Assembly: GCA_003024785.1 (NCBI GenBank)
Contig: PUQB01000033.1
Span: 372,001-436,000, forward strand
Source of the DNA: Selaginella tamariscina
Taxonomy: Eukaryota > Streptophyta > Lycopodiopsida > Selaginellales > Selaginellaceae
Reading direction: 5' to 3'
DNA length: 64,000 nt
Shown here: positions 8,444-11,538 of the stretch, piece by piece
Numbering within the stretch: position 1 is the stretch's first letter
Layout of the letters: every line of letters starts with the position of its first letter
The notes under the pieces: model-generated
Databases searched by the model: none
What the model was told of the DNA's origin: nothing
What the model saw: the letters and a program-made list of their open reading frames with translations, nothing else
Translations under genes and position numbers: made by a program

Positions 8444-11400
8444 ATGGAGTCGTCGTCAAATTCTGGGTAAGAATTAAAATAAAATCTGTTATACTCGGAT
8501 ACTTGAACTAATCATTTTTGTATTCAGATGTGGAATTGAGGTGACATTAAAGACAAGAGCAGGAGAAGAGATGGGCAGGGGGATTCTGGAATCAACTTGG
8601 CCATATTTTAAGATAAATGGGAAGCGCATTGGAGCAACCATGGTGCTGTCAAATTAACCTCTGTCACATCTCATGGACAAGCAAAACAATGGAAAGTAGA
8701 TTCGCTAGTCAAGCACCCGAAAGCAGGCTGCGAACCCAGATTGGACGATGCTCGACAGATATGCCTTGTTCCATCCAATGTCACGTTCTCGGATCCAGAG
8801 GTCGTCAGTTACAACATTAATTCGGGTGGTTTTGTCGACTTGTGGATAATGACGTTCACGTGTTCACTAATGATGTTGACCTTGGAGTTCTTCTTCAACT
8901 CAACGAAAGCCCATCTATGGAGGGGATCCATCTGGATGTCTACTTCGAAGATCTTCAGACTCATCGAGTAGGTGTATTGTCAGGAGATATTGCTTCACAA
9001 TACAGAAAATCAGCAAGTGGAGCAATCTTCCCTCTTCACATTGAAGAAGAACACAGCGACATCATAAGGAGATTGAGAGGGTGGCTCGGTCTCAGGTTCT
9101 CTACAGATCACGTTCAATTTGCTTAGGAGCTTTGGGAGCTGGAAGAGTGTGCCGAGAACACTAGAACAGCTGCAGTCGGGGATCACACATGTTGATTCGG
9201 ATCGCAAAAGAAAATCATCAATCGTTTTGTCAGCTGCACCTGTGGCATCTCATGCTGCAATAAGTCACAAGGAAATGATGTTGGATGATAAGATTTATCC
9301 TTGTAGGGTTAAATATTGCAGCGTCAACCCAAACTTCAATTACAGGCCACTCAACCAGGAACGTGTAGCTGAGCTCATGGAGAAGATGAAGGACGACAAT
9401 TCTTATACCGTTCCACATAATGCTGTTTTGTGTCCATACTATGAAAGAAGGAAGGGCGCTGACAAAGTCTGGATCACAACACCAGAACAACTCATGAAGA
9501 TTCAGACGGAGAATGAACTATCAAGTACTACATCATTAGTGGCCAGCACACAATAACGGCAGCCCAACGACTTCTCGATGAACACAACAAAGGAACGATG
9601 GCAACAAAACTTTCCGAGCATACCCGTGAGAAGCTGACAAAAAGATCGGCGTTTTTAGCTAAGCCGAATCTCACAATCGAGCAGTACCATAAGTTATCGG
9701 CGGAATGGGACGCTGCCGACACCAACCACTACAACAGCAAAATATGGGAGAAGTTTAAACACACGCGAGCCGTGTGGGAATCTCTTCAGCGACCACAAAG
9801 AGCTACCGCAGGGAATACACAATCTGCGGAATACCGGGTAAGCAAATTGTTTGGGCGGGATTTATCTCGCCGGTATATTAATCTGTCTTTTTCCTCAGAG
9901 AGTTGAAGAAATTGCAGCAGTTGATTTTGCCCAGGTGGGCGGGAAGGAAACATCCTTTCTGATGATGTTGATTTCTTGCCCCGAAGATAGGATCTTTGCC
10001 AAATGGTTGGGGATTATGGAATCCTTTTCAAAAGGAACACTGAAGAAGAAGCAGACAAGTGAAGGGGAGCCCTCAGAAAAGTCTGCAAAGAAACCCAGTA
10101 AGACGCCGAAGGCTAAGTCTGTTCAATCTACAAAGGATGTAGACAACGATTTCAAGCTCACATGGTTGAAGCCTTTAAATGGAACAACGATGGAGGAGAT
10201 GGAAGTCTTGGCTGATTTGGTGATCGATGGCAAACTACAAATTAATAACAGCAGCCCAACCTCTCCTTTTCATCTCAAGGCAATGGAGTTGAAGACGGTC
10301 AGGCATTTCAAGGAGTGGTTGGGAATACACTGCCACAAACTGGGTTGGACCTCGACTTCAACATATGAAGAGGTCAGCAAATATTTGCATGTGACGAACG
10401 ATGATATGCTTGTCGAATGGGTGAACCAATCGGAAGATCTAGGCAAGAATCTATTGCACGCCAACGCCAAAAAGGAGAACATTGGGATGACGCCTTCTCT
10501 TATGGCAGTCCTTCAGCAGCGGAGAACCGAATTGAACCTTATAAAGGAGGATGCTACGAATCACGACAAGCCCTACAGATGTTTGTTGTTAGATTCGGAG
10601 ACTTTATGGGGTAACATCACTGCTTGTAGGAAACCGTTTCAATTGTTCGTGATGGATCGGCGGGTGTCAAAAAATCTTTCGACAGATAGGGCACTAGAGG
10701 ATCTGGTGGAGAAACTTAGCCGTGCAAGCATATACATAGAAGGTATTTATTATTGAATTCATGCTTGCGCTCTTCACTGATACCTACTTTTTCAGGTATT
10801 TATTTCTTGATTCTTGCTCATGTCACCGATACTTTTGCCTTCGCCTTCGCCAAGAAGAATAGACATCGTTGGACAGGATTTTATATGAACGATGCTAATC
10901 CCAAGTGCATTGATACGTTGTTCACTTGGTTGTTAGGAATGCGCCAAACAATTTCAAGCTTCCAAATGACTGGCCAGGCATCTGTTTGCACTCCAACGGC
11001 CCTGAACCTCCATCCGATACACCGATAGGTATGAGTGACGTATTCGGCAATGTACGTTATCCAAATTACAAGTCAAGCGGCACGGAGCATCGTCAACTTG
11101 ATCAGGGGTCCTCACAGTGATGCGTGGGTTTTTGACTACTGCACTAGGGGGTCCGTCTTGAAGGAGTGTTACCTTCGGCATACATGTGTGTTTGCCGTTG
11201 AAAAGGATAAGACCATGGTTGAGGACCTGAACAAGTGGATAGATTGGGTCTCAACTGAGTACCCAACGAATCCATAAAGGCGTATTTGAGAAAGTTCCCT
11301 CCAGATAAGTGCGATAGCTCTGAAGGTGAATCTGGTTCAATCTCGGAGTCTGAGAACGAACTCAATCAGATATTAGACCGGAAGTTATCTCGAGGAGTAC

Positions 11401-11538
11401 AGAACATTCGCACACTCCAGGACCCATGGAAACATCAATAGAAGATGCAGAAGATCTTGAACCATCTCACAAGCGGCTTAGACCTTCTTCGCCTCACTCA
11501 GAAGGTAATAGCGAAGAAGAATTGATAATGAATTGATA
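8444..11538 (+). pseudogene. ParB-like domain joined to a possible DNA-methylase-like half; frame interrupted
   Basis: Start ATG 8444 (MESSSNSG). A likely 5' leader intron ends at TTTTGCAG 8403. Introns seen: 8467-8527 (61 bp), 9838-9898 (61 bp) and 10743-10795 (53 bp), all GT-AG. The middle part has RPLNQERVAELMEKMK (about 9345-9390) and, in another frame, YYIISGQHTITAAQRLL (about 9525-9575). This is the ParB/ParB-like nuclease pattern, where SGQH-x-(T/R)-x-x-AA is the core box. A long clean exon, 9899-10742, follows with a Lys/Ser-rich linker. The C-terminal half holds LLLDSETLWGNI (about 10585), FLILAHVTD (about 10805), DAWVFDYC..GSVLK (about 11125) and CVFAVEKD (about 11190). That order resembles an N4/N6 DNA methylase, but the DPPW and GxG residues are not intact. 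It ends in an acidic tail (HKRLRPSSP.., stop about 11538). The frame changes several times (about 8640, 8840, 9130, 9510, 10935, 11060, 11275), so it is a pseudogene or indel-affected. The ParB call is fairly sure, the methylase call tentative. Confidence 0.6.
9853..9872. repeat. Copy of the GGCGGGATT palindrome inside an intron
   Basis: GGCGGGATTTATCTCGCC with one flanking G/C pair occurs inside the 61-bp intron 9838-9898 of the ParB-methylase-like gene. It is a one-change relative of the ATTTAT-core variant found in array 2. It occupies about a third of the intron. Confidence 0.85.

Follow-up and report, generated by a model that had tools for sequence, protein, structure and literature searches.

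The stretch of Selaginella tamariscina DNA analysed here (64,000 nucleotides of contig PUQB01000033.1, referred to throughout as the window) carries a spliced gene on its plus strand at 8444..11536, with a middle portion that resembles ParB. The gene model opens with an ATG at 8444, closes with a stop codon ending at 11536 and joins exons 1 (8444-8466), 2 (8528-9837), 3 (9899..10742) and 4 (10796-11536), all on the plus strand, across three introns (8467..8527, 9838..9898 and 10743..10795), every one of them of the GT-AG type. Across these introns the exons are open and in register, and the first-pass annotation was right to describe an intron-bearing gene of the eukaryotic type; the peptides that it quoted are likewise present in the sequence. 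Exon 3, which encodes a Lys-rich linker and is the longest open stretch, was equalled in openness by none of 1000 Markov-1 resamples, and the segment at 9116-9514 by 2 of 1000. For the shorter segments openness is uninformative, up to 584 of 1000 resamples being as open. The 64-kb window holds no second copy of the gene, and Rfam and tRNA scans came back empty.

Outside its introns the gene changes frame eight times, a feature absent from the first-pass annotation, at about 8642, 8842, 9115, 9518, 10938, 11053, 11258 and 11396, and its read-through translation of 973 letters carries an X at each of these points. There are no in-frame stops between the frame changes, in segments that had been picked as open ones. 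Because the neighbouring genes are frame-changed too (the phosphatase gene described below once and the minus-strand gene several times), we regard an unpolished long-read assembly as just as likely a cause as decay, and the same reasoning led us to set aside a programmed frameshift. Since one of the changes, near 9518, separates the two ParB-like stretches quoted in the first-pass annotation, these lie in different frames as the DNA stands.

The neighbour to the left is a divergent, transposase-like gene on the minus strand (1..2700) that is frame-changed, apparently spliced and cut off by the start of the window. It matches the Pfam family DUF7869 at 429-752 (E = 1.1e-26) and again at 958-1410 (E = 4.5e-6), and at 2106-2384 there is a weak match to Transposase_23 (TNP1/EN/SPM) that stays below the cut-off (E = 0.009, or 0.0047 with a shorter piece). 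Pfam labels DUF7869 as unknown, and our literature search found no paper that names it; from its appearance by eye, we take it to be a putative transposase domain, presumably of DDE nature. The stretches HDKMDHSKT, QMDNCAGENKNR and GHTHEDID, picked out by eye in the same gene, presumably give it the look of a transposase core. The N-terminal region of the ParB-like protein (8528..8720, plus strand), which has no Pfam match of its own, resembles the TNP1/EN/SPM-like stretch of the DUF7869 protein. This likeness reached E = 0.098 in BLASTP as the best of 11 pieces compared, and its score, tested after that ranking, was matched by 2 of 5000 shuffles. Directly behind the ParB-like gene follows a gene for a NIF/FCP1-like phosphatase (11764..12968, plus strand), with a frame change near 12440; its first piece matches PF03031 at E = 1.5e-7, and the gene is at most a candidate member of the same element.

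Upstream of each of the two divergent genes lies an array of an 18-bp palindrome, GGCGGGATTAATCCCGCC. At three or fewer mismatches the window contains 22 copies, which lie between 2832 and 9871 and nowhere else, whereas 100 shuffles contained 0.00 on average; at four or fewer mismatches there are 28, of which 11 are exact. Array 1 (2832..3130), ahead of the minus-strand gene, consists of six copies at two or fewer mismatches, four of them exact. Array 2 (6887..8102), ahead of the ParB-like gene, has 21 copies at four or fewer mismatches (15 at three or fewer), seven of them exact, and a further copy with two mismatches sits inside intron 2 (9854..9871). The arrays are no more than about 0.15 and 0.35 kb away from the two gene starts, and the distance from one palindrome to the next is 41-46 bp in 15 of 27 cases. 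Among the 28 copies, themselves picked for their likeness, mean pairwise identity is 0.85. For the spacers it is 0.53 versus 0.50 after shuffling (19 of the 27 spacers, of 15-45 bp, the other eight being unused), or 0.565 versus 0.523 when either orientation is allowed, with values above 0.8 in 6 of 171 pairs. Array 2 consists in part of inverted duplications with arms of up to 70 nt that are 93% complementary. These duplications explain part of the conservation of the palindrome, and together with the six alike spacer pairs they indicate that parts of array 2 grew by inverted duplication.

Long inverted repeats of this kind would also fit a host-regulated repeat locus, where the palindromes are either sites for a host factor, for example of the E2F type (the half-site resembles that of E2F), or a small-RNA hairpin repeat, and the genes are incidental. 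That the arrays lie so close to two divergent gene starts, with one copy inside an intron of the ParB-like gene, argues against this explanation, and we consider it very unlikely.

Further features of the intergenic DNA may be recorded here. By eye, an inverted repeat at 8219-8299 (GAGCTCACATTTGT / ACAAATGTGAGCTTC, within CTGTCC / GGACAG) is found about 145 bp ahead of the ParB-like start codon, and the AT-rich stretch between the two arrays has short runs of the CCCTAAA type (4715-5289), which we take to be plant-telomere-like. When viral contigs were scanned for the palindrome, one stretch matched, at a single site in its first 600 bases, and was judged unrelated.

The resemblance to ParB was seen by eye in two stretches of the plus strand, VNPNFNYRPLNQERVAELMEKMK (9323..9391) and, in another frame, the P-motif-like KYYIISGQHTITAAQRLL (9523..9576). 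Directed tests place this resemblance above chance, though it is weak. A profile was built from 12 diverse ParB domains of our choosing; under it the score of the uncut 100 residues was beaten by 23 of 10,000 shuffles and that of the cut (trimmed) form by 7 of 10,000, and a profile of 45 fusion-type proteins gave 52 and 21 of 10,000, respectively. The likeness becomes thinner on longer targets (on 241 residues 100 of 10,000 shuffles did as well, and on the full read-through 47 of 2000). The score comes mainly from the second stretch, SGQHTITAAQRLL, which is all that the best alignment covers; the first lies outside the best profile alignments and inside a weak DUF6551 match. In hhalign comparisons the 45-fusion profile met this part of the protein in the right register (E = 0.056, probability 1.0%), in an alignment that extends to the conserved ADNK...WD stretch of the fusions. 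The P motif departs from GxxR, reading SGQHT with Thr for Arg, whereas all six of the aligned fusions keep G..R.

General libraries gave a more reserved answer: Pfam, NCBIfam, PHROG and PADLOC scans of pieces and halves returned no family at cut-off or with a convincing E-value. PF02195 (ParB_N) was absent at E up to 10 from Pfam scans of gene pieces and read-throughs, which were run with HMMER filters that discard most matches with E above about 0.1; the first-pass annotation had named a missing Pfam ParBc hit as a result that would refute its proposal. What survives of the ParB-like domain it described is a weak likeness around the P motif. The top Pfam family was DUF6551, below the cut-off at E = 0.081 and 0.064, in matches that span both ParB-like stretches and arose with two of five queries, precisely those with the inner stretch omitted; with the uncut form nothing was listed. 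DUF6551 is a family associated with ParB-CTPase-fold proteins (PMC12704722). The present protein is like these in that DUF6551 ranks best for two trimmed sequences, and unlike them in that the E-values of 0.06-0.08 stay below the cut-off and the P-motif Arg is replaced by Thr. Neither a ParB nor a methylase chain was matched when the PDB was searched by sequence. Two stretches were modelled in structure, both with low confidence; one of these models, of one half and made without relatives, had a mean pLDDT of 50.7.

We must weigh the possibility that this plant gene or transposon protein is an orphan, homologous to neither ParB nor methylases, its motifs being chance likenesses in 64 kb of DNA. 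In favour of this are the lack of library hits at cut-off and of ParB or methylase chains in the PDB and the two low-confidence models, and unrelated families also give weak best matches (DUF6942 at E = 0.058, IL31 at 0.1 and an unknown phage family at 0.069). Moreover, the open reading frame with the second ParB-like stretch ranks merely sixth of 2036 six-frame frames with the fusion ParB profile. Set against this are the directed tests, which remained above chance with the uncut sequence under both profiles and on the longer targets. We judge the orphan explanation to be quite possible but not probable, and put the chance of a true ParB/Srx fold in the middle domain just short of even. Several weak matches were set aside as chance: DUF6942, IL31, Exportin-T, the phage family, an apicomplexan microprotein family, a sugar reductase model and, from the PDB sequence search, one chain of a polymerase along with designed repeat proteins.

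The C-terminal part had been proposed to be an N4/N6 methylase half without intact DPPW and GxG residues. Both motifs are indeed absent from the read-through. At the expected DPPY position (10580..10612, plus strand) the sequence reads CLLLDSETLWG, and the motif IV profile was equalled in 4052 of 10,000 shuffles; in the stretch that resembles motif I by eye, DAWVFDYCTRGSVLK...VEKD (11119..11208, plus strand), DYCTRGS stands instead of a DPFGGSG-type sequence. On 68 residues a narrow motif I profile gave 196 of 10,000 shuffles, rising to 741 of 10,000 on 216 residues, and at full length it reported nothing; a broad motif I profile, at 1485 of 10,000, was not above chance. Comparison of the 45-fusion profile with this part by hhalign yielded E = 0.012 and 0.028 (probability 3.5% and 1.8%), in alignments that are out of register and pair the fusions' motif IV Asp with what was supposed to be the Asp of motif I. 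In Pfam the motif-I-like piece matched DUF2624 best (E = 0.0017, below the cut-off, and 0.11 with a longer piece), which we take to be a chance match, and the library scans, Pfam N6_N4_Mtase among the profiles suggested for them, assigned no methylase. The methylase resemblance is borderline in a single narrow test and no better than chance in the others, and the proposed methylase half finds no support. Should the C-terminal half be a methylase, it is a dead one, and we consider this rather unlikely.

These results bear directly on the suggestion that a phage or bacterial ParB-methylase fusion was domesticated here, gaining introns while its methylase half died. By eye, the order of parts is that of the phage fusions (ParB part, DPPY place, motif-I-like stretch), judged from an alignment of six of them with 392-501 residues; the register of the ParB part up to ADNK...WD and the narrow motif I result on 68 residues lean the same way. 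Like these fusions (PF02195 + PF01555), the gene would have a larger C-terminal part behind a possible ParB-like one, and the latter shows a weak register match. Unlike them, it lacks methylase motifs, contains introns, has an extra N-terminal region and is about twice as long (its 973-letter read-through exceeds every one of the six), and no significant in-register profile match runs across both halves. The out-of-register methylase alignment, the null motif I and motif IV results, the missing DPPY and GxG and the DUF2624 match all count against such a descent, as does a search of 5.8 billion proteins with the full read-through, in which 7993 candidates were scored and none came to E = 0.01, a result that says little on plants. 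We therefore find a domesticated fusion unlikely. Seeds for the ParB-methylase comparison were sought by way of ybdM and yhdJ of E. coli and of two ParB-like proteins from phages; four methylases of 192-311 residues were not used as fusions, and two further proteins were left out, one annotated as a DNA methyltransferase for being short and the other for a gene that overruns the start of its record.

Other searches for relatives were also negative within their scope. With the ParB part, 0 of 133 candidates from a protein search reached E = 10, which bears little on plants, and a phage search found nothing. Viral contigs scanned with two exon stretches gave no confirmed relative, and nothing was found in them with the DUF7869 piece. 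Among the matches listed in a literature search, no title concerned a plant ParB-methylase.

The remainder of the window, from 13247 to 64000, carries kilobase-scale repeats that recur many times over and are about 70-89% alike in the listed pairs. At 13240 there is a sharp start of homology to four downstream places (21311, 26292, 34563 and 58933), a boundary that perhaps marks where an inserted block ends on the right. On the minus strand, a piece of a Plant_tran transposase (PF04827, E = 8e-23) lies at 51544-51921, overlapped by an open frame at 51876-52259 that has no Pfam match and may be its continuation past a frame change; the Plant_tran piece and the CCCTAAA-type short repeats agree with the earlier impression of a plant-like genome. 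Retrotransposon pieces occupy 45691-48206, also on the minus strand (RT_RNaseH_2, E = 1.9e-26), with weak zinc-knuckle and aspartyl protease matches at 47562-48206. Terminal repeats or other element ends were not identified in the window, the left side being cut by the window start.

The divergent DUF7869 gene, the N-terminal likeness between the two proteins and the palindrome arrays together point to a mobile element and not to a domesticated stand-alone gene. The first-pass annotation had passed over this setting, and descent from phage ParB-methylase fusions is not supported. The explanation we tentatively prefer, while rating it somewhat below an even chance, is that a plant-type DNA transposon, or a piece of one, carries the ParB-resembling gene as an accessory gene, the product of which acts on the element's own palindromes. 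It builds on what is directly observed at the locus, namely the gene model, its neighbours, the arrays and the N-terminal likeness. The two genes, DUF7869 running leftwards and the ParB-resembling gene rightwards, would belong to one element in which each is preceded by a palindrome array. An element protein, either the ParB-resembling one or its partner, would bind these arrays, and binding could mark the noncoding DNA of the element and so control its expression, its replication or its escape from silencing. The ParB-resembling protein itself would be an accessory and probably DNA-binding one. Its middle domain, if it has a true ParB/Srx fold, would be the nucleotide-switched or DNA-loading part, and the C-terminal part may act as a scaffold with no working methylase.

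VANC belongs to a small group of known systems that are encoded by transposons and work on arrays of the transposon's own short motifs. In VANDAL21 of Arabidopsis, VANC21 and VANB21 have repeats with VANC21 targets in their introns, and such repeats also lie upstream of VANA21 (PMC5735166). By that account (PMC5735166), the locus described here is alike in having a transposase-like gene with a gene for a second protein, and dense copies of a short motif both ahead of genes of the putative element and within an intron. The motif here is, unlike that of VANC, an 18-bp palindrome, and the likeness in question is one of layout. The transposase of VANDAL elements is of the Mutator type, whereas the transposase-like gene here is of the DUF7869 type. 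By analogy, binding of the palindromes and a VANC-like anti-silencing through hypomethylation would be putative activities of our protein. En/Spm (CACTA) transposons also carry arrays of short motifs, and the weak Transposase_23 match in the neighbouring gene is a second point of contact with them; unlike in En/Spm, no CACTA ends were seen in the window and the arrays lie between two divergent genes.

One further possibility, which we regard as a long shot, is that a ParB-fold protein and parS-like arrays work together in this plant transposon, the protein loading at GGCGGGATTAATCCCGCC, spreading from there and shielding or partitioning the DNA of the element. If this were true, a bacterial-style partition or clamp system would be at work in a eukaryotic nucleus. 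The transposon reading we prefer would add another system that acts on its own motif arrays, here with a palindrome and a possible ParB fold, and it would offer a testable pair of protein and site in which the candidate site is exactly defined. Should the ParB part hold, a fold known chiefly from bacterial partition would gain a branch in eukaryotic mobile elements.
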